Shown: positions 16,167-33,892, counted from the first letter of the stretch. The stretch is 36,386 bases of DNA from a virus (IMGVR_UViG_3300017962_003379:1-36386), one strand, 5' to 3'. Numbers and translations are program-made. The notes: generated by a model from the letters alone, not told the origin.

Positions 16167-16718
16167 TTATAACTCCGCTAATTGATCTAAAAACAAAGCT
16201 GCACCGTCTGCTACATTTTTAGCCCATTCGTCGGCAGCATTTTCATCTGCCATGTCACTAATATACTTGAAACTTCTAAACGGTATCTTATATTGTTGTG
16301 CAACATACGCTAGTGCCCATCCTTCCATGTCTACACAGTCTACGTCAGCTTTAACAAACCACGGATCAGCTTCCATTACAAAACTATCACCTGTGCCGCA
16401 GCGTACTTGCATAACAGGTGCTGCGGTTTTAATATCACTGATAACTGGATCACTGAATGGAACAGTACCTCTAGGTGCTTGAGGCTCTGCAATCATATCA
16501 CGTTGTATAAATGTTCCAATTTCTACTAAACCTTTTACTATTGGATTTAGACCTCCTGCTGTGCCATAGTTAATAATCAATTTTGGTTTATTTGCTTTGC
16601 ACAAGTGCTTTGCCAGAGCAGTTGCAGCTTGTACTTTACCAACTCCTGTGTAAACTATATCAACTCCACGTGGAGGTTCAGGTAATTCGTCTTTAAGTGC
16701 TACGCATAGTGTTATCAT
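16167..16718 (-). CDS. MTA/SAH nucleosidase-like nucleoside phosphorylase family protein
   Basis: Starting at the ATG at 16718, with a GAGGA binding site inside the end of the previous gene (an in-frame upstream codon at 16736 is less likely), the protein has 183 residues. It contains NYGTAGG at 50-56 (phosphate/purine loop), MEG at 131-133 with E132 for ribose binding, and SDMAD at 154-158 with D155 as the general acid of MTA/SAH nucleosidases. That family cleaves adenine from methylthioadenosine, S-adenosylhomocysteine and 5'-deoxyadenosine. Its setting among radical SAM enzymes and methyltransferases makes by-product removal a reasonable role. It is shorter than bacterial Pfs (about 230 residues). 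Confidence 0.82.
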   Translation of the reverse strand: MITLCVALKDELPEPPRGVDIVYTGVGKVQAATALAKHLCKANKPKLIINYGTAGGLNPIVKGLVEIGTFIQRDMIAEPQAPRGTVPFSDPVISDIKTAAPVMQVRCGTGDSFVMEADPWFVKADVDCVDMEGWALAYVAQQYKIPFRSFKYISDMADENAADEWAKNVADGAALFLDQLAEL

Positions 16719-16720
16719 TG

Positions 16721-17278
16721 TTATTCCTCGTACCAATATTGATCTTGCATAGGATCAATACTAACTTCATTTACATTAAAATGTTTAGGCTGATCTATCA
16801 ACCATTTAATATATTGTGCAGCAACATCTATATCTATGCACTGTCTATCTGGATGTTTGTGCTGATTATTGCTTAGTGTTCCAAAACTAATTAAACTTAC
16901 TTTAGGCTTATCGCTCCACACACCCATTAATCCAAGTGTATTACAGTAATCACGTAAGGCTTTCTTTTCTGCGTTGTATAACCAACCGCCGCCTTTCTTA
17001 ACTCTATCAGTAGTACTACCTATACACACAATATGTGCTTTTTTATTGGCATTAATTAGTGCCTTGCATACTATATCTAGTATAACAGTTTGGGTAAAGC
17101 GCCATAGTGCGCTATTGATAATGATTACGTCATGCTGTACAGCCTTTTCAGCAAATAGTTCCTGAGATTTATGTTCAGTTAAATCAAATCCGTTTGTTCT
17201 ACTAATAAACTCAGCTGTTGGATACAGTTTGTACAAGGCTTGTGCTAGTCCTTGCTCTGGATTTCCTGTAATAATCAT
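16721..17278 (-). CDS. SDR-like dehydrogenase, compact
   Basis: The 185-residue protein begins MIITGNPEQGLAQAL, a variant of the TGxxxGxG dinucleotide loop, followed by VIIINSALW where the NNAG motif would lie. A possible catalytic set is S88 (CIGSTTDR), Y101 and K105 (YNAEKKA, the YxxxK signature). At 185 residues it is short of the usual 250, so it lacks most of the substrate-binding C-terminus. It would oxidise or reduce a hydroxyl or carbonyl with NAD(P). The start is fixed by an ATGA overlap with the twitch radical SAM gene and GGAG upstream. An inactive relative is possible. Confidence 0.65.
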   Translation of the reverse strand: MIITGNPEQGLAQALYKLYPTAEFISRTNGFDLTEHKSQELFAEKAVQHDVIIINSALWRFTQTVILDIVCKALINANKKAHIVCIGSTTDRVKKGGGWLYNAEKKALRDYCNTLGLMGVWSDKPKVSLISFGTLSNNQHKHPDRQCIDIDVAAQYIKWLIDQPKHFNVNEVSIDPMQDQYWYEE

Positions 17279-18522
17279 TGTGTCTCCATGTACGGAGCAA
17301 ACTCTGGATACCAGTCTAGTATGTTAGTTTGATGATATTTGTCTAGCGCACGAGTATAGTTTACAAAGTCTTGCCAATGTTCATTCCAGTCTTCGCTGTT
17401 CATATAATCAATAACACTGTTACCAAACCTACGAGCTTGACGCATTTGTCTTTCTAAATTAATTTTAGGATTTATTGCAAATTCTTCTTCCATGCGTTCG
17501 CTAAACTCTTGCCATTGTTCTGTTGTTTGCTGCTTGAGTGCAGCAGGCAATAGTTTTGGATTTAATGCTCTTGGATATTGTACTAAACTTGTATGTACAT
17601 ATGCTCCAATACGATTAAAGTATTTGAATACATCAACAAGCCTAGTAATGTTTAACAAGCTAGTTGTACATGTAGCATTTAAAAACACGTTGTCAAGTTC
17701 ATTTGCGACACGAGCCATATTAGCCTCTACTTGATCCAAGTGTGCATGAACTCTAACATATTCATATACTTTATCATCTGCATCAATACTTACACGTATA
17801 TCAATCTTTTTAAACTTTTTCCAAAGGTCTAGTATACTTTTACCTTTGTATTCTAATGTGTTTAAGTTACTGTTGTAACTAAGTTCAATATCATGAGCAG
17901 AATCTAGCAATCCTTCTAAAAACGCATAGTGCTTGTCGTGATACAACGGCTCGCCGCCTGCAATCATAATTTGTTTTAAATGCGGAGCAAATGTTCCAAT
18001 TTCTGAGATCATTTCATCAGTCAATCGAACATGATAATCCATTTTACGATAGCTGCCATTAATCTTTTGTTGTTCTAACAATCCGTCATCACGCTTTACA
18101 GCCGCTTCCCATTTACTACTGTAGTCTGGACTACAGTGTCTACACATTAAATTACAAATATTATCAAAACGTATTTCAATTGATGTCATATTTTCCAATG
18201 GCATTGTATAGTCATCGTTCATTGCTGCCATAGCACGTTCATAGTCAACAGTCTCAGAAAAGTCATTGATACAATTTTGTCTAGTACTGCTAACACCACT
18301 ACGCTCTAAATCCCAACAGCTTTTACAGCCTGGATGTTGTTCACCGTTTAGTAACGCACGGCGTAACTCACGCATACGTTCACCGTTCCATGTGTCAGTA
18401 AGTGTGTCATCTAAATAATCGCCAATCCTGTCAGGAAAGCGCCAACAAGCACTTAACTTGCCTTCTTGTTTAATATTAATATGACTAAATGGCATCACAC
18501 ACCATGTATTAGGATGTTTCAT
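17275..18522 (-). CDS. N-terminal-twitch radical SAM protein (array gene 6)
   Basis: I use the ATG at 18522 (415 residues); the frame reaches a TTG one codon earlier. The SAM cluster is CNLMCRHC with C123, C127 and C130, and AGGEPLYHDKHY is the SAM-binding GGE strand. Before the barrel lies an extra cysteine set, C8 (WCVMPF), C26 (SACWRF), C66 and C69 (CKSC), the layout of the twitch-domain-containing radical SAM family. Most array members have CC where this one has a single Cys at 26. It overlaps the previous array gene by 14 bases and the SDR gene by ATGA. The auxiliary cluster probably passes or accepts electrons; the substrate is unknown. Confidence 0.88.
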   Translation of the reverse strand: MKHPNTWCVMPFSHINIKQEGKLSACWRFPDRIGDYLDDTLTDTWNGERMRELRRALLNGEQHPGCKSCWDLERSGVSSTRQNCINDFSETVDYERAMAAMNDDYTMPLENMTSIEIRFDNICNLMCRHCSPDYSSKWEAAVKRDDGLLEQQKINGSYRKMDYHVRLTDEMISEIGTFAPHLKQIMIAGGEPLYHDKHYAFLEGLLDSAHDIELSYNSNLNTLEYKGKSILDLWKKFKKIDIRVSIDADDKVYEYVRVHAHLDQVEANMARVANELDNVFLNATCTTSLLNITRLVDVFKYFNRIGAYVHTSLVQYPRALNPKLLPAALKQQTTEQWQEFSERMEEEFAINPKINLERQMRQARRFGNSVIDYMNSEDWNEHWQDFVNYTRALDKYHQTNILDWYPEFAPYMETQ

Positions 18523-19915
18523 CAAAAATACCTTTCATTTCAGGAAATGTTTCTGCAAAACTATTTCCACGTTGACGATCACACAAATCTATAAACTGCT
18601 TCATTTCAGGCAAACGAACACTCCAGTCTTCACTTTCCATAAAGTTAAGCATACCTTCTAAACGTTTTATTCCATAATCAGCATTACGCCATTTATCATA
18701 TTCTACACGACCTTGGTGCCAGCTAGGAATACCTTTTTCCCAATTAGCTTCCCACCATGGATAAAACTCTTCGTACTTACGACGACACTCTGCTTTAAAC
18801 CAAGCGGGCAACACTTTTACATTTAAATGTGCAGGATGATAAACAAAGTGATAGTTAATACCACCTGCCCCAAAAGGCCACATGTTAATTTTTTGGAAGC
18901 CTTGTTCAAGTTTCCAACGAATAAAATCAGGCAAATAATATACATTAAGTGCTTGTACCGCACAAGCAAGAGTAACTTCAGTATTATCACCTGTTTGCTT
19001 GTCTAGTATATGAAACACTTCTTCAGTACGTTTCCATTCACTTGGATAGCGAATGTAATCATTCATAGCATGTATACTGTCTACACTGTAGTGGAAGCGT
19101 ACTAGTTTAAACTCTTTCCATAAATCAAACAAGTCTTCACGCCACTCTACGCCATTCGAATTATAACGCAACTCTAAGTTTTTAGCATGCCCTTGACGTA
19201 TACATTCTTCTAGTATTTCATAGTGTTCCTCAATAATAAGACTTTCGCCGCCAGCAAAATATATTTGCTGCATATTAGGAATTTGTTCATAAAACTGTTG
19301 CCAAAAAACTGGATTATCTCTGTGCCAATTATAGCTACTGCCGTTAACACTTCCTTTGTCAGCCCACTGCATAGTATCTTTAAGATTGTTATTTGTTACT
19401 TGTGGATGTATTGCTTGCCAATCTTTGATCCAACCTGAACTATCATGCGGGCTACACATAACACATGCTAACTGACATTTGGTACCAAAACGTAAATCAA
19501 TATACGCAAGTTGTGGAGGCACTTCGCCATCTTCTTGTGTGTTTGCTAACAGTTCTTCGACATTAGTACGCTGACTCCAGTAGTGTGTTTCCCATTGGCG
19601 TTTGCTGCGATGACCAGCAGCTTCTTCTTTAAAACATTTTGCACAGCTAGGTGGTATCTCACCGTTCATCATTTGCTTGCGAACATTGCGCATATACTTG
19701 CTGTTCCAACTACTTTGAAAGTCAGTTATGTTTAAGTTATTGGGCCTACCTTCGTCATCTTTAAGCACACCAATCATGCCACCATGTTCACTTTTATCAT
19801 TAGTAGGACCAACACTTGACGCATTTGCTGTACAGCAAACACGCATACTTCCGTCAGGTCTTGTACTTAAATGCACCCATGGCAGAATGCAAAATGTATC
19901 ACTTATCTTTTTCAT
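18509..19915 (-). CDS. N-terminal-twitch radical SAM protein (array gene 5)
   Basis: The 468-residue protein is the largest of the array. The N-terminal cysteines are C9 (FCILPW), C27-C28 (RVCC), C91 and C94 (CAKC); the SAM cluster is CQLACVMC with C147, C151 and C154. FAGGESLIIEEHYE is the GGE strand and HYSVDSIHAMNDYIRYPSEW the radical-SAM barrel strand found in all array members (S-D-[GAS]-x-Y-x-R). The pattern LPWVHLSTRPDG near the start is shared by gene 3. It overlaps the PP-loop ATPase by 17 bases, and no strong ribosome binding site is visible. Confidence 0.88.
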   Translation of the reverse strand: MKKISDTFCILPWVHLSTRPDGSMRVCCTANASSVGPTNDKSEHGGMIGVLKDDEGRPNNLNITDFQSSWNSKYMRNVRKQMMNGEIPPSCAKCFKEEAAGHRSKRQWETHYWSQRTNVEELLANTQEDGEVPPQLAYIDLRFGTKCQLACVMCSPHDSSGWIKDWQAIHPQVTNNNLKDTMQWADKGSVNGSSYNWHRDNPVFWQQFYEQIPNMQQIYFAGGESLIIEEHYEILEECIRQGHAKNLELRYNSNGVEWREDLFDLWKEFKLVRFHYSVDSIHAMNDYIRYPSEWKRTEEVFHILDKQTGDNTEVTLACAVQALNVYYLPDFIRWKLEQGFQKINMWPFGAGGINYHFVYHPAHLNVKVLPAWFKAECRRKYEEFYPWWEANWEKGIPSWHQGRVEYDKWRNADYGIKRLEGMLNFMESEDWSVRLPEMKQFIDLCDRQRGNSFAETFPEMKGIFDETS

Positions 19916-20687
19916 AATTTTCTAATGCCCAATGTTTTTCTTTACACCACCAACACTGCATACAATCTTGTGTAAAGTTTTTTGTTAAGAATGTATCACC
20001 TTCACAACTTCTTGTTATACGTTTGAGATCATCTGTTATGCCTAATTGATGTGCAAGCCACATAGTAATTCTTTTGTCTGCATTTCTAAATGGCTCTATG
20101 TCTTTTAATTTTATTTTTTCATAATCGAAATATCTAACCACGCCCGCACTGTTTTCTATTGTATCTAATTTACAATCTCTGTGTGTTTCCGGACTGTCTT
20201 CTATACTGCCTGGCGGAGGATTTAATGTTGTTCCTGAGTACAATGATATATTATAGTTGTTTTCGCTTGCTTGTTTTAACGCCCAGGCTTCAGCAGTACG
20301 TTGCTGATACAAATAACTGTTTTCTTTCTTAATGTTTTCACACCACCAATAGTCAGCATCTAGTATTATATTAAATATAAACTGTTGCTTTTGAAAATGC
20401 TCTTTTACAAACAATTCAACATTTGTTGCAACTATACCATTGTTTACTCGATTTAGCATCCTGTTAGGTGTAAGATTACGTCTGTTTACTGTCAATTGTT
20501 GTATTTTGATTTTTAAATCAAATTTTTGATTTGCATGTGCAATTAGATAGCACAATACAGCACTGTCCCATCCACCACTTAGCTTAATAGCTGCTATTGG
20601 GTGTTCAGCATCTATGTATACATCACCATACGGTGTATTATACTTTACAAGTTTATCATCAGTCAAGTCTGCCCGGAGTTGCATCAT
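19899..20687 (-). CDS. PP-loop ATPase with QueC-like cysteine site
   Basis: The 262-residue protein has the PP-loop SGGWDSA at residues 37-43, the SGGxDS(S/T/A) signature of N-type ATP pyrophosphatases, which adenylate a carboxylate or carbonyl to add nitrogen or sulfur. Near the end C228, C242, C245 and C248 (SCEGD, then DCMQCWWC) resemble the zinc site of QueC but with a longer first spacing. No QueD, QueE or FolE is nearby, so a preQ0 route is unlikely. It is embedded between radical SAM array genes 4 and 5 with overlaps of 29 and 17 bases. The first ATG at 20687 and the adjacent one at 20684 are equally possible. The substrate is unknown. Confidence 0.75.
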   Translation of the reverse strand: MMQLRADLTDDKLVKYNTPYGDVYIDAEHPIAAIKLSGGWDSAVLCYLIAHANQKFDLKIKIQQLTVNRRNLTPNRMLNRVNNGIVATNVELFVKEHFQKQQFIFNIILDADYWWCENIKKENSYLYQQRTAEAWALKQASENNYNISLYSGTTLNPPPGSIEDSPETHRDCKLDTIENSAGVVRYFDYEKIKLKDIEPFRNADKRITMWLAHQLGITDDLKRITRSCEGDTFLTKNFTQDCMQCWWCKEKHWALENYEKDK

Positions 20688-21918
20688 ATTCCTCTTTTAT
20701 TATTTGATAAAATTCTGGATATACATCTTCGAATTTTTGTTTTCTCAGACGATCTAAATCTTTATTATATTCTGCAAAACGAACAATATCTTTACTGTCG
20801 TTTTGACTGTTAGTTAAAATGTTAATAACTCTATCGTAAAATCTTTTAATATAATCTATATCTTCACTGTTGCTGTATTCTGCAAATTCTTCACGGTAAC
20901 GTTCAGCAAGTTTGTGTTTATTTGGATAGTTATCAACACTGTATGCTTCTGGATAATACACTGTACTAGTAACAAAGTCTCCAGGCATCATCTCTTCTGG
21001 ATGCCCAGTTATTCTTGGCAACTGCATTTCAACACGTAAGTTATACCACCATTTGAATACTAGTCCTATATTGCTAATGTTTAGTACGTTAATAGTAGGA
21101 GCAATACAAACTCCTATGTTATCGTTTTCTTTTTCTAATTCTAACCAATGTATAGCATGAGCACTTAATGTTTCCCATTGACTTCCGTGTCGAATATAAT
21201 CATTGTATTTTTCAACACCGTCAATACTTAAACTTATAAGAACTTCGCCAAACTGTTTAAGTAATTCAATAATACTATTTTTAGGAAACCAACTACTGTT
21301 AGTAAAGATTACTAGTTTAGTATTGCTTGCATTACCTCCTGCTAGCACAGTTTCTAAGAATTTGCCAAAGTTTGGATTTAACATTGGCTCGCCGCCAACA
21401 AATTTAATTTCTTCAATTTGTGCGAAATCCTCAGGTTGCCAACTAAATTCAATGTCAATTATTTTCCTACTAGGACGATTTTCTTTGTATACTTTACTAA
21501 GTGCTAGGTCATCATCATACCAACTTGTGCTTAAATTACTATTGCAAGTACGACAACTTAAATTACAATAGTTTCCAAAACTAACTTCTAAGTATTTTAA
21601 TCCTATGCTGTTGTCATGTTCGGGCCAGCGTTGATTAAACATAGTACGCATGCTGTATCCAACACGCTCTTCTTCTTGATAACATTTCCAACACCCATGC
21701 ACAGGTTCTCCTGCTAGCATTTTTTCACGCACACCAGCAAACTGTGGACCATTTAATACGTTATCTGTTCCAATCGAATTATGATTGTTTTCAGCCCAAA
21801 AATCTGCACTTTCTTCAGTATCCCAATGAACAAATCTACAGCAAGGCTTTGCTACACCGTCTGGCTTAACTGCAAAGTGCAAAAATGGTAATACACAATA
21901 TGTATCTTGTTTTGTCAT
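20659..21918 (-). CDS. N-terminal-twitch radical SAM protein (array gene 4)
   Basis: The ATG at 21918 forms an ATGA overlap with the previous stop and has AGGA upstream, so I prefer it to the longer frame; the protein has 419 residues. N-terminal cysteines are C8 (YCVLPF), C26-C27 (PCCRF), C76 and C79 (CWKC). The SAM cluster is CNLSCRTC, with C118, C122 and C125. FVGGEPMLNPNFGKF is the GGE strand and SLSIDGVEKYNDYIRHGSQW the barrel strand. Its first 30 residues are the most typical of the family (CVLPFLHFAVKPDG, CCR). The end overlaps the PP-loop ATPase by 29 bases. Confidence 0.9.
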   Translation of the reverse strand: MTKQDTYCVLPFLHFAVKPDGVAKPCCRFVHWDTEESADFWAENNHNSIGTDNVLNGPQFAGVREKMLAGEPVHGCWKCYQEEERVGYSMRTMFNQRWPEHDNSIGLKYLEVSFGNYCNLSCRTCNSNLSTSWYDDDLALSKVYKENRPSRKIIDIEFSWQPEDFAQIEEIKFVGGEPMLNPNFGKFLETVLAGGNASNTKLVIFTNSSWFPKNSIIELLKQFGEVLISLSIDGVEKYNDYIRHGSQWETLSAHAIHWLELEKENDNIGVCIAPTINVLNISNIGLVFKWWYNLRVEMQLPRITGHPEEMMPGDFVTSTVYYPEAYSVDNYPNKHKLAERYREEFAEYSNSEDIDYIKRFYDRVINILTNSQNDSKDIVRFAEYNKDLDRLRKQKFEDVYPEFYQIIKEEYDATPGRLD

Positions 21919-23240
21919 GTGTGCGTTCCTACGTATTGTTGTATCCAAGGTGTATAAATTGGTTCAATATCTAGTATACTTTGGTTTCTTAGTTCGTCCA
22001 ATCGTGTACACCAACTTAAAAATTGTCTGAATCGTTCGCTGTTATCTTGATTGTTCATAAATTTAACTATGCTGTCTAGTTGCTTGTGAGCATGCTGTTG
22101 AATGTTACTATCATACTTATCAAACAAATGACGCTTGCTAGCATAGTGTTCTTCTATATTTTGTTTTAGCTCCTTAGGCAACACAGTTATATTAGAACTC
22201 CAAGGTCTATGACACATATGATAACTCATAATTGGATTCTTTTTATAACTGTTAATTTTTTTAAATCCTTGTTCTAGTTTCCACAGCATAAAATCTGGCA
22301 CGTGCCATACGTTATAATTGGTTACAGTACAACTTAACCACGCATGAATGTTGTCTGGCATATCATCAATTTTATGCAAGTTACGTTCGATCGCACTCCA
22401 ACGAGCAGGATAACGCTGATACTCTAAGTGTTTGCCTATACCATCAATACTTGCACCAATTCGAACTTGTTTAAAATGTGTCCACAGTTCTAATACACGT
22501 TCTGGTATGTTGGTCATGTTAGTATTATATTCTAAACGCATGTGGCTTGCATTGTCTGTGTCAACTGCACGTTGTAAAAACTCAAAGTGACGTTCGATCA
22601 TCATTGGCTCACCGCCTGCTAGATAAACATGTCTCATGTTTGGCATGTTGGCTTCTAATTGCTCCCAGAAACTGTCGCTGCGATGCCAATCATAAGCATT
22701 TGTGTGCCAACGTCCTCGATCGTTTTTAGTTAATGTCACTGTACCGTGTGTGTCTTCCCAACTAGTTTCACCTGTTATTGCAACATGATCGTTGTACCAA
22801 GTATGACTATCTTCAACACCGCACATTCTGCATGCTAGGTTACACAAGTTTCCAAACCGCAAATCATAATGTACTAGTTTTTGTATATCAGTATCTAGTG
22901 TGCCATCTTCTTGTGTAAATTCACGTACATGTTCTAGTCTAAGAGGCCAGTCTTCAATCTCATAACTGCGTCTACTAGGAAGTCCTGCTAGTTCTTCGCT
23001 GCGACATCTGCCACAACTAGGATGCCACTCGTTTCGCATCATACTAGCTCTAACATCTTTAATCAACTCAGCATTACGAGCTTGAGTTAAGTCGTCGGTG
23101 CCTGCGTTATAAGGTGTTCCATCTTCTTTTCTCAGTGTACCTCTTTCAGGTGTTACGTTCATTTGACAGCAAACACGTACACAGCCATTATTTTGTATTG
23201 CTTGAAAATTCCAAGGAACTGGGCAAAATGTATCAGACAT
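21915..23240 (-). CDS. N-terminal-twitch radical SAM protein (array gene 3)
   Basis: The 441-residue protein has N-terminal C6 (FCPVPW), C24-C25 (VCCQM), C76 and C79 (CGRC), an additional C20, and a SAM cluster CNLACRMC with C133, C137 and C140. LAGGEPMMIERHFEF is the GGE strand. Features shared with array gene 5 include a matching DLRFGxxCxLAC block, NWHRD/DWHRSD-type aromatic segments and a C-terminal NFMESEDWSVR/KFMNNQDNSER-type helix, so genes 3 and 5 look like the closest pair. It overlaps the previous gene by 8 bases. Role unknown; its substrate is probably similar to that of gene 5. Confidence 0.9.
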   Translation of the reverse strand: MSDTFCPVPWNFQAIQNNGCVRVCCQMNVTPERGTLRKEDGTPYNAGTDDLTQARNAELIKDVRASMMRNEWHPSCGRCRSEELAGLPSRRSYEIEDWPLRLEHVREFTQEDGTLDTDIQKLVHYDLRFGNLCNLACRMCGVEDSHTWYNDHVAITGETSWEDTHGTVTLTKNDRGRWHTNAYDWHRSDSFWEQLEANMPNMRHVYLAGGEPMMIERHFEFLQRAVDTDNASHMRLEYNTNMTNIPERVLELWTHFKQVRIGASIDGIGKHLEYQRYPARWSAIERNLHKIDDMPDNIHAWLSCTVTNYNVWHVPDFMLWKLEQGFKKINSYKKNPIMSYHMCHRPWSSNITVLPKELKQNIEEHYASKRHLFDKYDSNIQQHAHKQLDSIVKFMNNQDNSERFRQFLSWCTRLDELRNQSILDIEPIYTPWIQQYVGTHT

Positions 23241-24288
23241 ATAAACTAAACCTTTCGTCTAAGTCTAACAGTTGTGTTGTACGAATTTCGTCAAGCATAC
23301 TATTATAACTTTTAAATTTTTCATAGTTGTCATTGCTAAACACTGTAGATTGTAACAACTTTTTTAATTTTGGATCTTGAACACGTTGTTGTGCCCATGC
23401 AATATGCTCAGGCAATACTGCACTTAAACTAGTATATTCAACGTCACTGTCATCCCAATTAATTTCAAACTCAGCTGATATTGTTGCAAACCATTTTTCT
23501 AACTCAGGTAAGTTAAAAATATTATATGGAGTACAAACAACATTAAAACTATAAACGTTTGCTAGTTGCTCGTCAAATATTTGTTTTATTCTTGAACTAA
23601 CTTTATTCCAATTAGCATTAGTTCTAATATATTCGTATGTAGAATCAGTAGCATCTAAACTGAATACTATATTTACATATTCAAATCTTTTAAGTATACG
23701 TCTAAACTTTTGATTTAAGTTAGTTGCATTTGTAGTTATTCTTAAACGTTTACAAGAAACACTTTCCAATGCTTGTATTGCAAGTGGATCAATTGTAGGT
23801 TCACCTCCTAGTACTTTTATTTCTTGCAATTCACACGAACTTAAAAACTGCTTAAACTGTTCAAAGTCTTGTGCTACTAGTGTTTTATATTTTCTAAAAC
23901 CTTTGTATTGTTTTGCATATTCAAGTGCTTCTTGATTTATTAAACTGCTACTGTTAGGTACACACATTCTACATTTTAAGTTACAGGTATTACTAGGTCT
24001 ATAATCTAAGTATAACAGTTCAGGCTTGTCAACAGGTGTGCGCTTGTAGCGTTTGTTCCATAATGCTGTATCATTGGGCAATCCCATGTTTGCTTTACGT
24101 TCACAGTATGCACAATCTTCAGGCCAAATACCTGTGTTCAATTGCTCACGTATAGTGTTGAGCCGTTTGCTGTTCCAGTATTCCTCAGGTGACATGTGCA
24201 GCAAATGTTTAACTGCTACACAACAAGGTGCATACTCACCATACCCAGTTGCATACATACCCATCCATGGAGCTCTACACAAAGTCAT
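23233..24288 (-). CDS. N-terminal-twitch radical SAM protein (array gene 2)
   Basis: At 351 residues this is the shortest array member. The N-terminal cysteines are C4 (LCRAPW), C22-C23 (PCCV), C59 and C62 (CAYC); the SAM cluster is CNLKCRMC with C102, C106 and C109. VLGGEPTIDPLAIQAL is the GGE strand and VFSLDATDSTYEYIRTNANW the barrel strand. The YATGYGEYAPCC region is typical of the family's N-terminal fold. It overlaps the preceding gene by 14 bases and the next by 8, so it is coupled on both sides. Confidence 0.88.
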   Translation of the reverse strand: MTLCRAPWMGMYATGYGEYAPCCVAVKHLLHMSPEEYWNSKRLNTIREQLNTGIWPEDCAYCERKANMGLPNDTALWNKRYKRTPVDKPELLYLDYRPSNTCNLKCRMCVPNSSSLINQEALEYAKQYKGFRKYKTLVAQDFEQFKQFLSSCELQEIKVLGGEPTIDPLAIQALESVSCKRLRITTNATNLNQKFRRILKRFEYVNIVFSLDATDSTYEYIRTNANWNKVSSRIKQIFDEQLANVYSFNVVCTPYNIFNLPELEKWFATISAEFEINWDDSDVEYTSLSAVLPEHIAWAQQRVQDPKLKKLLQSTVFSNDNYEKFKSYNSMLDEIRTTQLLDLDERFSLYV

Positions 24289-25465
24289 CTAGTTTCATAT
24301 CCTCAAGTACTTGGCGCCAGCGAGTATTTCTAGCAGTGTCTAAGTCATCTAAGTAATTTATTAGTGTAGTTTTATGATCATCCCACAAGTCTTTTTCTAA
24401 CATATGATTAAGATAAAAAGGCCATTCTTCTTGCGCTGCATGTAAAAAGTCAATGCTTTCCCAGTCTTTTTTAATTTTTTCTTTAACAGGCATTGGTAAA
24501 ACTTGTGCGCTCATGTGCATAGGAAACTCTACATGATTACACAATAAGAATTTAATATTTGGATAAGTTTGTGTAATGTGTTCATACGTTTCTTTGAAAT
24601 AAAACATACTAATGTTACTACATGTCCATTGGATCCCTATATCAAAGTTTGATTTAGTAGCATATTCATTTAGCATTGCTAGTCTATTTTGTATTACACT
24701 CCACTGTGTAGGAAATCTAAAAAACTCTAATTGATCGCCGATAGCGTCTAAACTAATGCGCAATATTGTATTTTTAAATTTACTTAATAATTCCATACGT
24801 TCTGGTGTAAGCAGTATGCCGTTTGTTACATAAGCTAAGTGTACTTCGCGAGCATACCTGCTGTTACTTAAATGTCCAATAAACTCATTATGTCTTTTGT
24901 TAGCCCAACTTTCTCCACCAAGAAAGTTATAGCGTTTGATTTCATGTTTAGCTCTAAGTAAAGGAACCCATATTTTGTAATCAGTGTCAATCCAACGATT
25001 GCTTATTTCATGTTTTTTTGTATTTTCATATTTGTCTAATAGTAATTCATCTTCGTTCCACTTGCTGCTAGCACCAGTGCCACAGTGAATACATTTTAAA
25101 TTACAAGTTGTGCCAGTTCGAATGTCTACATGAGGAGGGTTATAGTCAACGCTTCCGTCTGAATTTGTTTGATCTAATAGATGTTTGTATTCCTCATACC
25201 AATACCCATTTTCATCTTCACGTTTACTTTTTCCGTTGAGCTTTTCAACATATTCGCAACGATTGCAATTGTCAGGCCATTTGCCTGCTAAAAAATCTTT
25301 TCGTATTGTTTTAAAGTATTCGTTGTTCCATTCGTCACTGATAGTACTACCTTTAAGTTTCCTATCTTCACGCTTAATAGTAGCATCGTCACTATAACCG
25401 CATACTCTAGGTCTACCAAATGTTGTTGTGCTAAAATTAATCCAAGGTAATATACAAGGCTTCAT
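24275..25465 (-). CDS. N-terminal-twitch radical SAM protein (array gene 1)
   Basis: This 396-residue protein is the first gene of the leftward run. N-terminal cysteines are C4 (PCILPW), a single C22 (VCGYS), C67 and C70 (CNRC); the SAM cluster is CNLKCIHC with C121, C125 and C128. The GGE strand is FLGGESWANKRH. Cys at the second CC position is absent (CG), so the auxiliary cluster may have an open coordination site or another ligand. A weak late-promoter-like ACTAAATA lies 6 bases before the ATG. Being first, its expression probably controls the coupled genes downstream. Confidence 0.88.
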   Translation of the reverse strand: MKPCILPWINFSTTTFGRPRVCGYSDDATIKREDRKLKGSTISDEWNNEYFKTIRKDFLAGKWPDNCNRCEYVEKLNGKSKREDENGYWYEEYKHLLDQTNSDGSVDYNPPHVDIRTGTTCNLKCIHCGTGASSKWNEDELLLDKYENTKKHEISNRWIDTDYKIWVPLLRAKHEIKRYNFLGGESWANKRHNEFIGHLSNSRYAREVHLAYVTNGILLTPERMELLSKFKNTILRISLDAIGDQLEFFRFPTQWSVIQNRLAMLNEYATKSNFDIGIQWTCSNISMFYFKETYEHITQTYPNIKFLLCNHVEFPMHMSAQVLPMPVKEKIKKDWESIDFLHAAQEEWPFYLNHMLEKDLWDDHKTTLINYLDDLDTARNTRWRQVLEDMKLDDFV

Positions 25466-25504: not shown

Positions 25505-26371
25505 ATGCGAGATAGTGTTAATAGAGAATATACCAGAGAATGGTTGCAGTTTGAAAGACCACAACCAATGTACGACAGTAGTATTAATAAACTATATGAC
25601 AGATTTTATCAAGAAAATCCTGTACATAATGAAAATTTATTTGAAGATTTTAAAACAGAATTTGTTAACTGGTTAGATCAACATACAATGAGCAAATTGT
25701 CTGGTTATAAAAACTTCACACAACAAGATATATGTGTTGGATGTACACAGTTTATCGACGATTTATACATGCGCTGTAGTACCAATGGAATACAAATATT
25801 AGAAAATGATTACAAGTATCACTGGAGACTTAATCCTGACATTGAATATGTTACTATAGATACACTTGATCCTGCTAGAGAATTAATTATAGCAATGCCA
25901 TTTCCATATTATGGAGATGTGCATCCGAAAATGAATCAAATACTTGATCGCTGTGAAGAACTTGACATACCTGTACACATAGACGCTGCTTGGTTAAGTT
26001 GTAGTAGAGATATCGAATTTGATTTTGATCACCCGGCAGTGAAAACATTTTGTATTAGTTTAAGTAAAGGCGGACTTGGCGGCAATCGTATAGCATTGAG
26101 ATTTGCTCGTAATCGTCCAGACGGTGCTATTACTATTATGAATGATTTTAATATGAACTGTCAAAGTTTAGTGTGGATGGGTATAAAATTTATGCAAGAA
26201 CTAGGTCCAGAATATTACTGGAGAGAATACGGAGCAGAATACGACCAAGTATGTAAGGATTTCAATTTACAACCTAGTAAAGCTATACACCTAGCTACCA
26301 ACAACGGTGAGCCTGTAGGTGTAAGACCTGTGTTGAGAGCATTAAAGTCACTGAATATCCTCAGCCACTAA
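25505..26371 (+). CDS. small PLP-dependent enzyme, divergent aminotransferase fold
   Basis: The 288-residue protein has a compact fold-type-I core: ICVGCTQFIDD (about 76-86, cofactor loop position), D160 in VHIDAAW (pyridine nitrogen), Schiff-base K188 in ISLSKGG and R195 seven residues later. The sequence IAMPFPYYGDVHPKMNQILD aligns in position with SQPNHTGSIHPKLNDLIE of the aminotransferase at 11215-12048, indicating distant paralogues. It is transcribed away from the 22-kb run and its last 24 bases overlap the convergent radical SAM gene. A reduced small domain may change the reaction; the substrate is unknown. Confidence 0.65.
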   Translation: MRDSVNREYTREWLQFERPQPMYDSSINKLYDRFYQENPVHNENLFEDFKTEFVNWLDQHTMSKLSGYKNFTQQDICVGCTQFIDDLYMRCSTNGIQILENDYKYHWRLNPDIEYVTIDTLDPARELIIAMPFPYYGDVHPKMNQILDRCEELDIPVHIDAAWLSCSRDIEFDFDHPAVKTFCISLSKGGLGGNRIALRFARNRPDGAITIMNDFNMNCQSLVWMGIKFMQELGPEYYWREYGAEYDQVCKDFNLQPSKAIHLATNNGEPVGVRPVLRALKSLNILSH

Positions 26372-27463
26372 ACCAAGTAAAGGTCTTTTCTTTAGCTCAC
26401 TTACACTACATGTTTGTGTACATCTCATAATTCTATCCTTGGGACCTGTGCCATGACACTTTGACTTCCAACTATCAACTAAATCATTTTTATAAAATTC
26501 TGATTCTATTATTTCGTCAAGCGTATAATAATTTAAATTATTCCAATTTTCGCCGTAAATTTCAAAACGTTGATCTTGTATTTCATGCACTTCTTTATGT
26601 AATCCGTTGTAATTTCTATTGCCAATAAAACAACAAGGCCACACACAGCCTTTGTAATCAACAAAATACATGTGTTGTTGTTTACAATGAATATACTCAT
26701 CCATCTTGTCAGCCTGATGACTGTTTAATTCTTCCCAGCCAATTTGGTGCTTTCGTCTAATAGCCTTATTGAGATCAACATGTGCTAATGCCCTGTCGGG
26801 TCGAGACATAAATCGTGCGAACCCCATGTCTTTAGCTAGTTGTTTGGCTTGATCAGTCTGATGTTCATTCCAAGGAAAAATTAACCATTGCCACAATGCG
26901 TCCTCAGCATAATCTAAATTAGATAAACGCTTTGATTCGTCGAGAAATGCTTGTGCATTTTTAATTATTTTGTTCCAATTACTTCCGCGCCTATACAAAT
27001 GATTTGTATCTTCTAACCCGTCTATACTAAAATGAATTCTATGAGGAATGTCGTTTTTTGCGAACAAGTTAGCTAACTTTGTAAAGTAGTCTGGCGATCT
27101 AAGACTTGCATTGGTATGTATTAAGATCAGATGATTGGTGTTTGTTACAATATAGTCTACCATATCTAAAAATTCAGGATGTGCTAGTGGATCATCTATT
27201 GTTCCAATAAATTCTATTCGCTTAACATTATTTTTAATTATATCACTATCTATTAGTTTTGTAAACACATCAAAACTTAAAAATTCATTCTTAGGAATAG
27301 CGGGATTAGTTTCTAGCTTTAAATTATAAATGTCAACAGACACGTCTGGATCATCGTATTTTTCTATAGAACTAAACAGTGTTCTAACACACCCAGGACA
27401 TCCTAGATTACAATTACTGCTAATTTCTAGTTGCAATGTTGAGGGGTTTCTGTTATAATGCAT
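26348..27463 (-). CDS. SPASM-type radical SAM protein
   Basis: I start at the ATG at 27463 (371 residues): an upstream in-frame ATG at 27478 lies inside the promoter palindrome and could not be used from it. The SAM cluster is CNLGCPGC with C18, C22 and C25. Downstream are RIEFIGTIDDPLAHPEF, HFSIDGLEDTNHLYRRGSNW and a SPASM-like cysteine set (FVDYKGCVWPCCF, then KCHGTG and RCTQTC). The same blocks occur at 30830-31924 (HLYRQNVVW and LLMPCCW), so they are paralogues. It is transcribed leftwards from a bidirectional late-type promoter and overlaps the PLP gene at its end. Substrate unknown; SPASM proteins act on peptides or glycans. Confidence 0.9.
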   Translation of the reverse strand: MHYNRNPSTLQLEISSNCNLGCPGCVRTLFSSIEKYDDPDVSVDIYNLKLETNPAIPKNEFLSFDVFTKLIDSDIIKNNVKRIEFIGTIDDPLAHPEFLDMVDYIVTNTNHLILIHTNASLRSPDYFTKLANLFAKNDIPHRIHFSIDGLEDTNHLYRRGSNWNKIIKNAQAFLDESKRLSNLDYAEDALWQWLIFPWNEHQTDQAKQLAKDMGFARFMSRPDRALAHVDLNKAIRRKHQIGWEELNSHQADKMDEYIHCKQQHMYFVDYKGCVWPCCFIGNRNYNGLHKEVHEIQDQRFEIYGENWNNLNYYTLDEIIESEFYKNDLVDSWKSKCHGTGPKDRIMRCTQTCSVSELKKRPLLGLVAEDIQ

Positions 27464-27475
27464 ATTAAGTACCAA

Positions 27476-27483
27476 CATAAATA
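27476..27483 (+). promoter_or_regulatory. late promoter CATAAATA for the amidinotransferase operon
   Basis: CATAAATA exactly matches the marine T4-like late consensus and lies 17 bases before the ATG at 27501, leaving a short leader that includes GAGA at 27491-27494. It overlaps the complementary box on the other strand at 27482-27489. Confidence 0.6.
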
Positions 27484-27500: not shown

Positions 27501-27830
27501 ATGGACGTTTATACAATCTACGCTGATCATACCGAAACAACAACAGCACCACAGTTTGTTGCCCTGATGCGAAAATTCTTAGACAAAATGGTAGAATTAG
27601 AACGCATAGAGTCTTATCGTATTACACGTATGAAACTAGGGTTTCGATCAATGGACTTACCTGAGTTTCGTATTGATATGGAATTTAAAAATTTGCAGCA
27701 ATTAGATGATGCAATGACTAGTGTGCTTCGTAACGAAGAAAATATCGAAGGAGAACACATTGGTTTTAACCATTTAGTAGATGTAGAAACAATCCAACAT
27801 TTTTTATATAGAGATTATCCAGATGAATAA
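27501..27830 (+). CDS. small conserved protein, DUF6614-like
   Basis: The 109-residue protein has the length and pattern of a small family seen in alphaproteobacteria (I believe DUF6614): an N-terminal strand MDVYTIYADH, a helix, LGFRSMDLPEFRIDMEF, and a C-terminal FLYRDYPDE. The alternation suggests a ferredoxin-like or dimeric alpha/beta-barrel fold, often used to bind a small ligand. It is the first gene of a three-gene operon behind a late-type promoter and overlaps the amidinotransferase start by 8 bases. Function unknown. Confidence 0.6.
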   Translation: MDVYTIYADHTETTTAPQFVALMRKFLDKMVELERIESYRITRMKLGFRSMDLPEFRIDMEFKNLQQLDDAMTSVLRNEENIEGEHIGFNHLVDVETIQHFLYRDYPDE

Positions 27831-29524: not shown

Positions 29525-29938
29525 TGTTTCAAACCCATCAAAGTCTTTTTTATACTCATCTGCGCCATGCAGATACATATAATGATAACCTTGTTGCTTG
29601 TAATAAGCACACTCATGTTCTAAACTACGTATACCTAATCTAAGTTCTGGATTAACATAATCCCAAGCAAACTGTTCTGCCATTACACTTTGCTGACTAG
29701 GATAAAGAACAATTAAACTCCAAGCTACTAGTTTGTTGTTATGATAATATCCTACTACTTCGTTATTTTTAAAGTCTTCATAAAACATAGGCATAACGCT
29801 TGCAAATTTTTTATATTTGCAATAAGCCATATATATCGAGTTTAACTCGCCATATGACCAATTTGTTAATATCTTAAATTGTGTATTAGGTAATAACTCG
29901 TAATTAGTTTTATCTAAATTTATTCTGCAATAGTCCAT
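29510..29938 (-). CDS. GNAT/arginyltransferase-like protein
   Basis: The 142-residue protein ends with a pattern like the C-terminal half of ATE/GNAT transferases: VVGYYHNNKLVAWSLIVLYP strands, then FAWDYVNPELRLGIRSLEHE and a GYHYMYLHGA strand (compare FxxDxxxPELRLG...YxYLG). It would move an acyl or aminoacyl group to an amine, with CoA or aminoacyl-tRNA as possible donor. It is the last gene of the right-hand leftward run, overlapping the radical SAM gene by 19 bases and the convergent CPYA gene by 15 bases. The donor is not established. Confidence 0.6.
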   Translation of the reverse strand: MDYCRINLDKTNYELLPNTQFKILTNWSYGELNSIYMAYCKYKKFASVMPMFYEDFKNNEVVGYYHNNKLVAWSLIVLYPSQQSVMAEQFAWDYVNPELRLGIRSLEHECAYYKQQGYHYMYLHGADEYKKDFDGFETLGSV

Positions 29939-30837
29939 TGTTTTGTATTTAACACCAAATCAATTGCACAATCACAAAATTTAGATTTACAAGTCAAACT
30001 CACAGCAGGTTCGATTTCTCCCAGTGTGTATACGTTGCCCATTGCTGTACGCATTTCACATGCACTACCGTACACAGTCCCATCTGCTGTGATATAACGA
30101 TAGGTGTTATTGCCCAAGTTACATTGCCATCCTGTAAAACTGTGTTGATCTGTAGCTATCAGTGTTTGTGGATCTTTTTGTATTCCGTCGATGTATAGGT
30201 ACATTTCAGGATTCACCATATTTACACTACAATTGTAATAATTCCACAGTAATATCTCTCTGTCCTCGTCAGTATAATCCACACTGAGTATTTGTTTGCT
30301 GTGGTCAGGTGTATTGATACGTTTCATTCTACAGCTAATTTCTAAATCACCTTGTGTTAGTCGATCCCAAGCACGTAAACATATGTCTTTGAATTTAGGG
30401 TGATAAAGTATTAGCACACTTATTCTATAGCGTTGATGTGTTTGTTTGAGCATAGCAACATAATGATCTAAGTCAGCATTTTCAGGATGAAAACTGAACA
30501 ACAAATGATTTATCGGTGCAGTAAATTTGCTCCACCAACGAGCTGTACGACTGCCGTTACTACTAAATGTAATATCAGTATAGTCTCCTACACTGTGACA
30601 AAATCGTTGCAAGTCGGGCCACAGTGTTGGTTCACCTCCCATGATATCAAGTATCACACGTTTACCTTCACTGAAGTTTTTTATGTATTCGATTAGACGA
30701 TTCGTTTTGTCACTGTCGGGCCAACGATATTTTCCGTCATGACATGCGGGCCAGCAATAACTACAACTGTAGTTGCACACTGTGGTACATTCCCAAGTAA
30801 TATATTTGTTGGTGTAGTTTGTAGTTGTCTCACTCAA
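29920..30837 (-). CDS. radical SAM protein, paralogue of 13783-14898
   Basis: The most likely start is a TTG at 30837, preceded by GGAG with 6 bases spacing (frame open to a TTG at 30858), giving about 305 residues. The SAM cluster is CNYSCSYC with C21, C25 and C28, and MGGEPTLWPDLQRF is the GGE strand. The C-terminus has GWQCNLG, SACEM, LTCKSKFCDC, a layout similar to its paralogue and consistent with an auxiliary cluster. The paralogue at 13783-14898 has the same CNYxCSYCWP block. It overlaps the upstream radical SAM gene by 8 bases. Substrate unknown. Confidence 0.85.
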   Translation of the reverse strand: MSETTTNYTNKYITWECTTVCNYSCSYCWPACHDGKYRWPDSDKTNRLIEYIKNFSEGKRVILDIMGGEPTLWPDLQRFCHSVGDYTDITFSSNGSRTARWWSKFTAPINHLLFSFHPENADLDHYVAMLKQTHQRYRISVLILYHPKFKDICLRAWDRLTQGDLEISCRMKRINTPDHSKQILSVDYTDEDREILLWNYYNCSVNMVNPEMYLYIDGIQKDPQTLIATDQHSFTGWQCNLGNNTYRYITADGTVYGSACEMRTAMGNVYTLGEIEPAVSLTCKSKFCDCAIDLVLNTKQWTIAE

Positions 30838-31924
30838 ATTGTGCTCCAAATGGATCAAACTCTGTTCCGCACTTCATAGCACATACTCCAAGTTTACCGT
30901 TTTCGATACTGTCTTTGCTCCAACTGGATTGTATGTCTTGTAACAATCCGTTTCTCATAACATCTTGTAAACTATTATTAATTACATCAATGCCCTGCTT
31001 TCCGCCGGCACGATCAATGAAATCCCATATTTGTTCTACACGTGGATCAGCATGCCACCATTTATACATACGTCCAGCAGTCCAGCAGCAAGGCATTAAC
31101 AACCCTTCTGCTGTAATAAAGATATTTTTTTCCGCAGCGACTTTACATTTAATATTACACTTATTGTAATAGTCGCTCATACTTCCGTATGATTTTTCTA
31201 TTTCTTTTTGCTTTAGCAGTGCTAGATTTTGATTGTCAATTGCTTTGGGTTTTTCAATTAACTGTGTTTGTTCACCTTTGCGATTTTGTGCTTGGTGTGC
31301 ATCTTTGCCTGCGTTATTTGCAGTAAAGAAACGTCCTGATTTTTTCTTCTGAAACTTTTCTACACCCCACTCGATAGCTAGTGCTTCTGCTTCATCAACT
31401 TGATGTTCGTTATGTCCAAATATAATATAATCCCATCGAGCTCTGCCACCAGCATCAATGAACGCTCGCATATTACGTTCTACATTATCCCAAACAACAT
31501 TCTGTCTATAAAGATGATTAGTATCACGCAAGCCGTCAACAGAGAAGATAACAGCCCCATTACGATTAATAACTCTAGCCAAGTCAGCCCACCACGTTTC
31601 ATCTTTTGCTCCTGCGTTTGTATTCATAGAAAGCCACATATCTTTATTGTGCTCTCTAAAGTATTTGAATATTTCTAATGTATCTCGTGCAACAATAGGA
31701 TCACCCAAGTTACCGCACATATACATAGTTTCTAACTGTGCGATAAACTCGGGATCAAATATACGTTTACAGTCTTCTAAACTTAGTTCAGCATTAGTAA
31801 TATGACGGTTATCAGCGCCTCCGTTTTCATTACGGTCACACATAGGGCATGCCGCTTGACAACGTTGTGTAACTTCTAAGTGTACTGTTTTTATATCTTG
31901 GTAATTATACATGCCAATGAACAT
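30830..31924 (-). CDS. SPASM-type radical SAM protein, paralogue of 26348-27463
   Basis: The 364-residue protein has SAM cysteines C22, C26 and C29 (CQAACPMC), YMCGNLGDPIVARDTLEIF, and FSVDGLRDTNHLYRQNVVW, a barrel block nearly shared with its paralogue. A C-terminal set (CNIKC, LLMPCCW, VCAMKCG) points to two auxiliary clusters of SPASM type. GRFFTANNAGKDAHQAQNRKG is a basic insertion before it. The ATG at 31924 overlaps the nitroreductase end; an ATG at 31912 is equally possible. It precedes another radical SAM gene by an 8-base overlap, so the two are co-translated. Substrate unknown. Confidence 0.88.
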   Translation of the reverse strand: MFIGMYNYQDIKTVHLEVTQRCQAACPMCDRNENGGADNRHITNAELSLEDCKRIFDPEFIAQLETMYMCGNLGDPIVARDTLEIFKYFREHNKDMWLSMNTNAGAKDETWWADLARVINRNGAVIFSVDGLRDTNHLYRQNVVWDNVERNMRAFIDAGGRARWDYIIFGHNEHQVDEAEALAIEWGVEKFQKKKSGRFFTANNAGKDAHQAQNRKGEQTQLIEKPKAIDNQNLALLKQKEIEKSYGSMSDYYNKCNIKCKVAAEKNIFITAEGLLMPCCWTAGRMYKWWHADPRVEQIWDFIDRAGGKQGIDVINNSLQDVMRNGLLQDIQSSWSKDSIENGKLGVCAMKCGTEFDPFGAQFE

Positions 31925-32588
31925 ACTCGCTTTGATCAGGTTTAGGTTCAGTTAACCATTTTTGACCAATTTCTTTAGTAACGTCGATCCATGTGTCAGT
32001 ATGAGGATTATAGGTAGTTGTTAAATCACTATTGATAACACCAACACCTACAAGTAGTTGAACTTCTTCTGGATAAGAAGCACCTGTAGCTGCTAGTAGT
32101 GACGAATCCCAACGCGGATCATCCCAGTTTAAGCATTTACAAAAACCACACTGTAAACCTTTAGCTCTAGCACTGTAGATTAACATGTGTGCAGCCATTC
32201 CTATCTCCATAGTGCTTAATCCAAATTCTACAGTACCATCAGGTGGCTGAGTAAAGTCCCATCTGAAAGGCTGCGGCTCTCTAGTTGAAAAAACAACTAA
32301 CCAGTTTGCTAGTGTTTGAGGATTAAACTTAGGGTCTGGATTATCCCTATCAACTGCCATTTCCCAAAAATCATCTCTGATTTGAGTATTGCTCCAATCA
32401 AACAGATGCATGCTGTATGCTACTCTGTTTTGTTTTGTCGGAGCTCTGCGATGAACTTCGTTGATTATTTCTTGCATAGTTTCTTGAGAAACTGTTTGTG
32501 TTAAATCCCATGCACTTGTTTGAAATCTAGCGTCCTGTATATCAGTCCAAAATTCCTGTAACCCGGGATTTTCTGTAATATCTGGCAT
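31905..32588 (-). CDS. nitroreductase-family flavoprotein
   Basis: The 227-residue protein fits the nitroreductase fold: RRAPTKQNRVAYSM near 47-60 (FMN phosphate-binding region, R47, R48 and N54), then MEIGMAAHMLIYSARAKGL at 127-145, the signature helix of the family. Members use FMN and NAD(P)H to reduce nitro, quinone or ene groups, or to oxidise peptides in natural products. GGAGAG stands before the ATG, so the start is clear. It is followed by the SPASM radical SAM gene with a short overlap, making a redox partnership plausible. Confidence 0.82.
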   Translation of the reverse strand: MPDITENPGLQEFWTDIQDARFQTSAWDLTQTVSQETMQEIINEVHRRAPTKQNRVAYSMHLFDWSNTQIRDDFWEMAVDRDNPDPKFNPQTLANWLVVFSTREPQPFRWDFTQPPDGTVEFGLSTMEIGMAAHMLIYSARAKGLQCGFCKCLNWDDPRWDSSLLAATGASYPEEVQLLVGVGVINSDLTTTYNPHTDTWIDVTKEIGQKWLTEPKPDQSEYVHWHV

Positions 32589-32589
32589 G

Positions 32590-32814
32590 TTACTCTCCTA
32601 AAATTAGTTTAACATCCTTGCCCGGCCCTGTACGACTAGGCAAGTCTCCATATGTATTTACATACCATTCAATGACTGCACAATACCATTTTTGACTGTT
32701 GTGATGTGCTTCTTTGTTAAACTTATATATATTGTTGTTTGTAGCTTGCATAGTACTTAGTGCCCTGGCACTTTCCTTTTGCAATTCACGCAAACTTAAA
32801 TCATTTAATTCCAA
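32590..32814 (-). CDS. small unknown protein, about 74 aa
   Basis: This small gene fits between the methyltransferase-type gene and the nitroreductase. The frame starts at a TTG at 32814 that overlaps the previous stop by 14 bases; an ATG at 32751 would shorten it by 21 residues. It begins LNDLSLRELQKESARAL, an amphipathic helix, and has a C-terminal segment YGDLPSRTGPGKDVKLI. There is one Cys and no signal peptide. A precursor peptide or a partner subunit is possible, but nothing shows either. Confidence 0.4.
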   Translation of the reverse strand: MELNDLSLRELQKESARALSTMQATNNNIYKFNKEAHHNSQKWYCAVIEWYVNTYGDLPSRTGPGKDVKLILGE

Positions 32815-33892
32815 TTCTCATAAACCTTTTATATTTTTCTAAATCTAGTTCACCTTGATAAAGGATCTTCGACATCGGAGTTTGCGCTGCAAATTCATCC
32901 AAATCCTTTGAACAATTTACATGTTCTTCAATATCAAAATAATTGTTAGTTTGTAATATGACTAGTTTTCCAATTGGTATTTTTGCATACCAGTCTGCAA
33001 AGTTTTCTATATGTTCGCAACTAGTATTAATAATAGTGTCGGGGTGATCAACTAGTGTAACAATCTTATTTTTAGTAACACTCCAAGTGTCTGAACGATT
33101 TTCTTCAAAATCAAGTTGATGTATATCTTGTGTTATAGCTTTAAATCGCCATCCGTCTATTTTAAGACTTTTATTAAATTGTTCTGCTATGTCAACGCAA
33201 GTTGGATCTAAATCAAAACTTCTAATACGATCAAATTCTATTTCTGCTTGCTGCAACATTGGAACAATAGTAGCATACCATCCAGCACAAAGAAAAACTA
33301 CGCCTAAACTGCGGTTTAGTTTTTTTAATTCTTCAACTAGCCATAGCTTGCTTTGTAATTGTCCTCTGCTAAAACAATCTGTATCAATTACAATGTCATT
33401 GATAAAAAAGTTTTTAAAAGCACTGGTATAAGGACTACTGACTAAATTGTTTAATATTGACCAAAGTTTCCAATAATTATCTCTGAGAACAAGATCTTCT
33501 AAATCATCATTCTCTAGTGCTAACAGTTTAAAAATACTTTCTCTATCATGGTCTAGTACTGCGGTTTTGCGTAATCTTACATCTTCGTTATCATCTGGAT
33601 AAAATTTAAAAATATATGTAAAGCTGTTAGGAACCGCTACCTTTCTCAAATCTTCACTTGTTGCATCTTTAATTTCAACAGGTAGTCCGTCCATAACTCT
33701 AAACAAACTGTGTACATTAAGTTCAAGCACTGCTTTACGTAGATCAGTATCGTGTTGGTTAGCTAGTTTGAAAATACTACTAACTTCTTTGTCTAACACA
33801 GCACACCGCAACCAAGCAAGTTCTTCTACTTCTGGGTATAATAGTTCATAACGATCTAACAGTTCGTGAATTTCTAAAGGAAGTGTACTCAC
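32801..33892 (-). CDS. repeat protein with C-terminal methyltransferase-like domain
   Basis: Starting at a GTG that overlaps the previous TGA (GTGA), the protein has 363 residues. Its first 150 residues contain five copies of a short repeat like L-R-K-A-V-L-x5-S-I-F-K-L (near 28, 51, 82, 107 and 131), which suggests a HEAT- or TPR-like helical scaffold. The C-terminal half has a Rossmann motif VVFLCAGWYATIVPML (198-213) followed by FDLDP (226-230), similar to a SAM-binding domain of phage methyltransferase-like proteins. The glycine-rich loop is weak, so cofactor binding is moderate. Function unknown. Confidence 0.6.
   Translation of the reverse strand: MSTLPLEIHELLDRYELLYPEVEELAWLRCAVLDKEVSSIFKLANQHDTDLRKAVLELNVHSLFRVMDGLPVEIKDATSEDLRKVAVPNSFTYIFKFYPDDNEDVRLRKTAVLDHDRESIFKLLALENDDLEDLVLRDNYWKLWSILNNLVSSPYTSAFKNFFINDIVIDTDCFSRGQLQSKLWLVEELKKLNRSLGVVFLCAGWYATIVPMLQQAEIEFDRIRSFDLDPTCVDIAEQFNKSLKIDGWRFKAITQDIHQLDFEENRSDTWSVTKNKIVTLVDHPDTIINTSCEHIENFADWYAKIPIGKLVILQTNNYFDIEEHVNCSKDLDEFAAQTPMSKILYQGELDLEKYKRFMRIGIK

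Follow-up and report, generated by a model that had tools for sequence, protein, structure and literature searches.

An array of six N-terminal-twitch radical SAM genes and its PP-loop ATPase partner in a viral genome record

Six radical SAM genes of a single family, the N-terminal-twitch (N-twitch) enzymes, are arranged in tandem on the minus strand of the window (R1 to R6, 17275-25465), with a PP-loop ATPase between R4 and R5 as the only other gene. Each of the six enzymes has its own orthologues in other viruses, and the ATPase is coupled to the N-twitch family by co-occurrence and by gene fusion. In relatives, the conserved operon is found next to tail-fibre-like and GT8 glycosyltransferase genes, and it may encode a tailoring pathway of the host-recognition region.

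The array and its surroundings

The window, i.e., the whole 36,386-bp IMG/VR virus record analysed here, stems from an uncultured marine phage and is probably a fragment. It contains eleven radical SAM genes within 36 kb, namely R1 to R6 and the genes at 3659, 13783, 26348, 29920 and 30830 (Table 1). A profile search with the full model NF033640 (N_Twi_rSAM, cut-off 170 bits) placed all of R1 to R6 in this family with scores of 205 to 424 bits, while the viperin model NF038283 (cut-off 180 bits) gave at most 36.3 bits. Alignment revealed seven cysteines that are invariant across R1 to R6: the CX3CX2C triad of radical SAM enzymes and four N-terminal cysteines. The six open frames described in an earlier note, which was made from the sequence alone, are intact and belong to one family, and the ATPase is indeed the sole other gene between them. 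The sequence blocks which the note had found to be shared by R3 and R5 correspond to 34-36% identity over nearly the full length, compared to 22-27% for every other pair. The overlaps between neighbouring genes, which it had given as 4-29 bases, amount to 14, 8, 4, 29, 17 and 14 nt; however, 20 of the 24 neighbouring pairs of the minus-strand run 3153-25465 overlap, so that coupling is a trait of the whole region and not special to R1 to R6. As proof of a special operon, the overlaps are thus weakened.

Upstream of R1, the window carries f3, f2, f8 and a nitroreductase-like gene (f5), broken up by plus-strand genes. f3 and f2 accompany R5 in most of the R5 loci (Table 1). f3 possibly is a GT-A-like glycosyltransferase, as suggested by its D-x-D motif and weak matches, and f2 has a distant match to a "putative methyltransferase" of the pelagiphage Mosig; neither protein gave a significant match in Pfam, PHROGs or the PDB. 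f5 and f6 are found in 19 and 20 of the 80 R5 loci, respectively, versus 4 and 1 of the 80 controls. The start of the small gene f8, which is shorter than the usual length cut, overlaps the end of f2 by 14 nt. Its product is 55-77% identical to copies in other marine viral contigs, a search of cultured phages yielded no copy, and the alignment shows even conservation along the whole length, like that of a folded protein. A programmed frameshift between f2 and f8 was considered and dropped: 17 of 57 f8 genes lie in the other frame, several of them with an ATG overlapping the f2 stop codon, and the remaining ones fit a TTG start. Downstream of the array, the nucleosidase at 16167-16736 could clear 5'-deoxyadenosine produced by the radical SAM enzymes.

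Several other genes of the window were recorded. The minus-strand run of the array also contains a radical SAM protein with a B12-binding domain (3659-5539) and another radical SAM protein (13783-14910). Two adjacent and similar AMP-binding enzymes are encoded at 6131-7558 and 7539-8951 (the latter judged by eye), and a short AMP-binding protein (12035-12733) matches model positions 170-374 only. At the edge of the window (35977-36384, minus strand), the end of a protein that looks periplasmic solute-binding-like by eye is followed by a short membrane-like open reading frame; transporter genes are possible at this cut edge.

Table 1. Positions and supporting evidence of the array, its ATPase and neighbouring genes in the window.
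Feature	Coordinates	Strand	Evidence
MTA/SAH-type nucleosidase	16167..16736	-	PF01048 77.6 bits
f6, Rossmann/SDR-like, 185 aa	16721..17278	-	Sub-cut-off SDR matches; overlaps R6 by 4 nt
R6, N-twitch radical SAM, 415 aa	17275..18522	-	NF033640 339.9 bits; L022, L028, L106 orthologues 47-54% identical
R5, N-twitch radical SAM, 468 aa	18509..19915	-	NF033640 423.9 bits; orthologues in 117 loci (some are overlapping pieces of one contig); relatives 87% identical; most conserved member
PP-loop ATPase, QueC-superfamily lineage, 262 aa (SGGWDS; CE...CMQCWWC)	19899..20687	-	PF06508 22.6 bits, cut-off 22
R4, N-twitch radical SAM, 419 aa	20659..21918	-	NF033640 299.7 bits; L028, L062 orthologues 36-40% identical
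R3, N-twitch radical SAM, 441 aa	21915..23240	-	NF033640 371.7 bits; orthologues in 51 loci (some are overlapping pieces of one contig); conserved core with R5
R2, N-twitch radical SAM, 351 aa	23233..24288	-	NF033640 204.9 bits; L028, L062 orthologues 43% identical
R1, N-twitch radical SAM, 396 aa	24275..25465	-	NF033640 276.6 bits; L028, L062 orthologues 59-62% identical
Radical SAM, upstream of R1	26348..27478	-	PF04055; NF033640 below cut-off
Radical SAM	29920..30858	-	PF04055
Radical SAM, not N-twitch	30830..31924	-	PF04055; NF033640 below cut-off
f5, nitroreductase-like	31905..32588	-	PF00881 17.7 bits, below cut-off 23.5
f8, 74 aa, apparent TTG start	32590..32814	-	46/80 R5 loci vs 0/80 controls
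f2, methyltransferase-like by sequence pattern	32801..33892	-	69/80 R5 loci vs 2/80 controls
f3, conserved R5 partner, D-x-D (VVDADA)	33889..34653	-	64/80 R5 loci vs 2/80 controls

Orthologues in other viruses and in Bdellovibrionia

A scan of viral contigs with an alignment of R1 to R6 yielded at least 580 confirmed N-twitch loci, the best 80 of which were kept. The best matches of each R gene are genes of other viruses and not its paralogues in the window. Both in a FastTree phylogeny of 291 proteins and in an IQ-TREE analysis of 48 rows, each of R1 to R6 falls into its own clade together with orthologues from other viruses, and these clades received SH-aLRT supports of 97-100 in the IQ-TREE analysis. 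The complete set of six genes recurs in two other viral contigs, in the order R1 R2 R4 R6 R3 R5 in L028, and in the order R1 R2 R4 R6 R3, ATPase and then R5 in L062/L106, which belong to one contig. The six-gene set has thus stayed together across viruses despite local reshuffling. Since each gene has orthologues in other viruses and the set is kept in L028 and L062, the paralogues are ancient and predate these viruses. The trees therefore bear out that the six genes form one family, but not the proposal of the earlier note that they arose by successive duplication and divergence within the cluster; a lineage-specific tandem duplication is ruled out by both trees. Gene order and complement differ between contigs, and R5 and R3, often with the ATPase nearby, constitute the widespread core. 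Scans with single sequences found no close relatives of R2 or R4, which were only detected as neighbours of R5. In four loci, a single open frame of 816-897 aa codes for two tandem N-twitch domains (L031 4552-7242, L042 11600-14152, L046 12641-15163 and L047 13110-15557).

In many phages, the core of R5, ATPase and R3 is located downstream of tail-fibre-like genes and GT8 glycosyltransferases. Contigs that reach far upstream show the order tail-fibre-like f149 and f42, then f21, two GT8-like f11 genes, f16, f3, f2, f8, radical SAM genes, R5, ATPase and R3. The product of f149 is similar to proteins of the virion and tail pin in PA5oct-like phages, and f11 matches glycogenin, a GT8 enzyme (E 9e-5). 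f42 looks like a virion protein by eye and had no match in phage collections. Genes for a DegT sugar aminotransferase and a carbamoyltransferase recur in N-twitch loci. The cultured Vibrio phage K566, a distant relative, carries four N-twitch genes interleaved with two GT8 genes (PF01501, 2.5e-12 and 8e-8).

Chromosomal copies are present in Bdellovibrionia. Homologs of f3 occur in 10 of 118 genomes, all of them among the 39 carriers of N-twitch genes (p 7e-6), and a stretch of about 28 kb on a 936-kb bacterial contig unites the ATPase and an R5-like gene with f3, f2 and several more of the shared families. Contigs derived from metagenome-assembled genomes may hold binning errors; two of the clusters are located on contigs of more than 900 kb. 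One Bdellovibrionia chromosome (G002:C1:745513-774880; L264, L265) encodes about 13 N-twitch genes within 30 kb, an array longer than that of the window. A protein of the f18 family, which is amidinotransferase-like by eye, is encoded both in the window (27823-29028, plus strand) and in the cluster L265 (14170-15243).

The ATPase and its coupling to the N-twitch family

The PF06508 superfamily comprises QueC, QatC, Cap9, LarE and WbpG (PMC13329287), and the ATPase of the window shares with it the SGGxDS PP-loop and a C-terminal four-cysteine site. It passes the PF06508 cut-off narrowly, and 17 of 31 relatives match this model at E<=0.01. Among 188 members of the lineage, SGGxDS is found in 185 and CxxCxxCxE[RK] in 177, and the C-terminal signature CxxC[WF]xCxE[RK] is peculiar to them. 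The ATPase, whose cysteine set the earlier note had called QueC-like, is not a canonical QueC: it scores 19.8 bits with TIGR00364, whose equivalog cut-off is 150.3 bits, and none of the 188 members has the QueC motifs YxQxHxxE, VPxRN and YPDC. Hence, the canonical queuosine pathway is ruled out. The zinc-binding spacing of canonical QueC, C(x)8CxxCxxC, occurs in two of the 188 sequences, and neither the motif CE(x)6CxxCxxC of Cap9, a protein of type IV CBASS, nor CxxC(x)6CxC of WbpG-type sugar amidotransferases occurs in any (catalytic and zinc motifs as given in PMC13329287). In the PDB, the ATPase profile nevertheless matches Cap9 best (E 5e-4, aligned at both ends), and PADLOC, which includes a model for QatC, returned no match for the ATPase of the window. 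Taken together, its sequence features suggest that the ATPase represents a QueC-superfamily lineage of its own and is not QueC. As a lone query it retrieved no relatives in viral contigs or phages; the loci fetched via radical SAM genes held dozens of them, and a profile (A2) was needed for their detection. The earlier note had proposed that the ATPase adds nitrogen or sulfur to a substrate on whose successive positions the radical SAM enzymes would act. Members of the QueC superfamily activate carboxylates for the formation of amide-type bonds (PMC13329287), so that for the ATPase, as one of them, carboxylate activation and amide-type nitrogen chemistry seem likelier than sulfur transfer.

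The co-occurrence of the ATPase with the N-twitch family in other genomes, which the earlier note had put forward as a check, is clearly seen. When viral loci were selected by the ATPase alone, 55 of 80 held N-twitch genes, versus 4 of 80 control loci selected by ThyX (Fisher p 3e-18), and the ATPase is present in 41 of 80 loci selected by R5 versus 4 of 80 controls (p 3e-11). Because the ThyX controls come from other phage lineages and a contig may be shared by several loci, lineage could account for part of this enrichment. The ATPase is missing from G015 and G017, two of the 14 whole virus records in which N-twitch genes occur. Two lines of evidence are independent of phage lineage. The two enzymes are fused in one frame, with the radical SAM part first in L009, L014 and L016 and the ATPase part first in L155. 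Moreover, the true ATPase, defined by E < 1e-32 and separated by a wide gap from generic PP-loop matches, was found in 6 of the 118 Bdellovibrionia genomes, all of which are among the 39 with N-twitch genes above the cut-off (p 0.001). The coupling of the ATPase and the N-twitch family is thus real.

Proposed role and comparison with known systems

Since sugars are substrates of twitch radical SAM enzymes such as BtrN and the QueC superfamily forms amides, a pathway that builds and amidates an unusual sugar or sugar-linked group fits the data best. We tentatively read the cluster as a pathway of the host-recognition region that tailors a glycan or a small molecule and relies on the ATPase to activate a carboxylate so that an amide can form; this reading is plausible but falls short of probable. 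We infer its substrate, step order, ATPase chemistry and destination as follows. The operon would represent one form of a biosynthetic operon that is mobile and variable and lies in the host-recognition region of marine T4-superfamily phages, and it would tailor a glycan or a glycan-linked small molecule. Each N-twitch enzyme would hold an additional Fe-S cluster in the N-terminal domain and catalyse its own type of C-H reaction on a common substrate, be it oxidation, epimerisation or coupling. The ATPase would adenylate a carboxylate and turn it into an amide by means of ammonia or an amine. Glycosyltransferases together with f2 and f3 might build the product or transfer it either onto the host envelope, thereby blocking co-infection, or onto the fibres of the virion. 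Several points count against a glycan: the window, whose sequence ends at 36386, has no clear GT8 gene or tail fibre, the glycosyltransferase reading of f3 is based on the features described above, neither a known reaction nor a close solved structure was found for the N-twitch family, and the AMP-binding and aminotransferase-like genes of the window fit amino-acid-derived metabolites equally well.

SPASM/twitch radical SAM enzymes often modify peptides, and the strongest rival explanation, albeit an unlikely one, is that the cluster modifies a ribosomal peptide, for which f8 is the sole candidate, or a tail-fibre protein, with the ATPase amidating or conjugating it in the manner of Cap9 or QatC. 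The fibre-like genes upstream of the core agree with this, as do the modification of protein N-termini by Cap9 and QatC (PMC13329287), the PDB match to Cap9 and the position of f8 as the only recurrent small open reading frame. However, the Cap9 motif is missing in the ATPase lineage, the conservation of f8 is that of a folded protein, and f8 is absent from nine of ten cellular genomes tested and from all six Bdellovibrionia with both the family and the ATPase. A small-ORF scan for a precursor found f8 and its antisense frame only, ruling out a peptide hidden between the genes, and an intergenic space of 1.9% leaves little room for one nearby. The set might also tailor, with adenylating enzymes, aminotransferases and oxygenases, a diffusible secondary metabolite derived from an amino acid or amine with no link to glycans or the virion. 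This is doubtful as well; the window does encode AMP-binding enzymes, a methyltransferase, 2OG oxygenase-like proteins, an aminotransferase and a sulfotransferase, and the gene pool is common to Bdellovibrionia chromosomes, but these accessory genes lie outside the conserved core, which in phages adjoins fibre-like and GT8 genes.

Two further explanations are much less probable. The variable gene order and complement are reminiscent of a hypervariable island, in which unrelated auxiliary genes would each act alone; it is improbable that such independent cargo would keep six orthologues together across three lineages, retain the R5-R3 core, form fusions in both domain orders and show R5-f3 pairs on chromosomes. 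Least probable of all is the synthesis of a 7-deazaguanine or another modified base of DNA or nucleotides by the radical SAM enzymes and the QueC-like protein. The combination recalls QueE and QueC, and 7-deazaguanine DNA occurs in phages (PMC6884629), but the TIGR00364 score and the QueC motifs speak against it, and no FolE- or QueD-like match was found among the window proteins scanned.

A broader and rather doubtful view is that N-twitch enzymes and a separate QueC-superfamily ligase lineage form an undescribed radical-chemistry system, common to marine phages and predatory bacteria, which diversifies recognition surfaces; if true, swappable enzyme cassettes would change the chemistry of these surfaces. 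The N-twitch family is abundant in marine viral contigs, and its chemistry is undescribed in the literature searched, in which neither a member with a known reaction nor a paper pairing "N-terminal twitch" with radical SAM was found. With a partner enzyme, a core (R5, R3, ATPase, f3 and f2) and neighbours now defined, what was an unnamed gene array becomes a pathway open to testing. The chromosomal copies in Bdellovibrionia provide cellular systems for such tests.

Among known systems, PMC7029224 describes pelagimyophage host recognition clusters, islands between VrlC and gp14 with tail fibres, in which GT8 genes occur together with radical SAM cassettes and for which O-chain modification against co-infection was suggested. 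WbpG, a PF06508 member, acts in O-antigen synthesis (PMC13329287). PMC5332604 reported 12 radical SAM genes in a T4-like genome, and a comparable set of enzymes lies next to VrlC in the pelagiphage Mosig. The N-twitch loci appear to be marine phage islands of a similar kind, and in relatives of the window their radical SAM genes likewise adjoin tail-fibre-like and GT8 genes. In contrast, the passages covered of PMC7029224 and PMC5332604 mention no N-twitch family, orthologous groups or ATPase of the QueC lineage, radical SAM neighbours do not appear in the main text of the QueC-superfamily survey PMC13329287, and the window, as a fragment, shows no tail fibres. In Vibrio phage KVP40 (genes 0258-0261), two N-twitch genes lie near a QueC-family gene as in the window, but KVP40.0258 (L263 8966-9652) lacks SGGxDS and is not matched by the profile of the window ATPase; it also lies near a NAPRTase-like gene. 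NF033640 covers all of R1 to R6, but is named by domain and not by reaction. Thus, radical SAM arrays as such were already known, and what is new is the family of this array, its orthologous groups, its operon and its ATPase partner.
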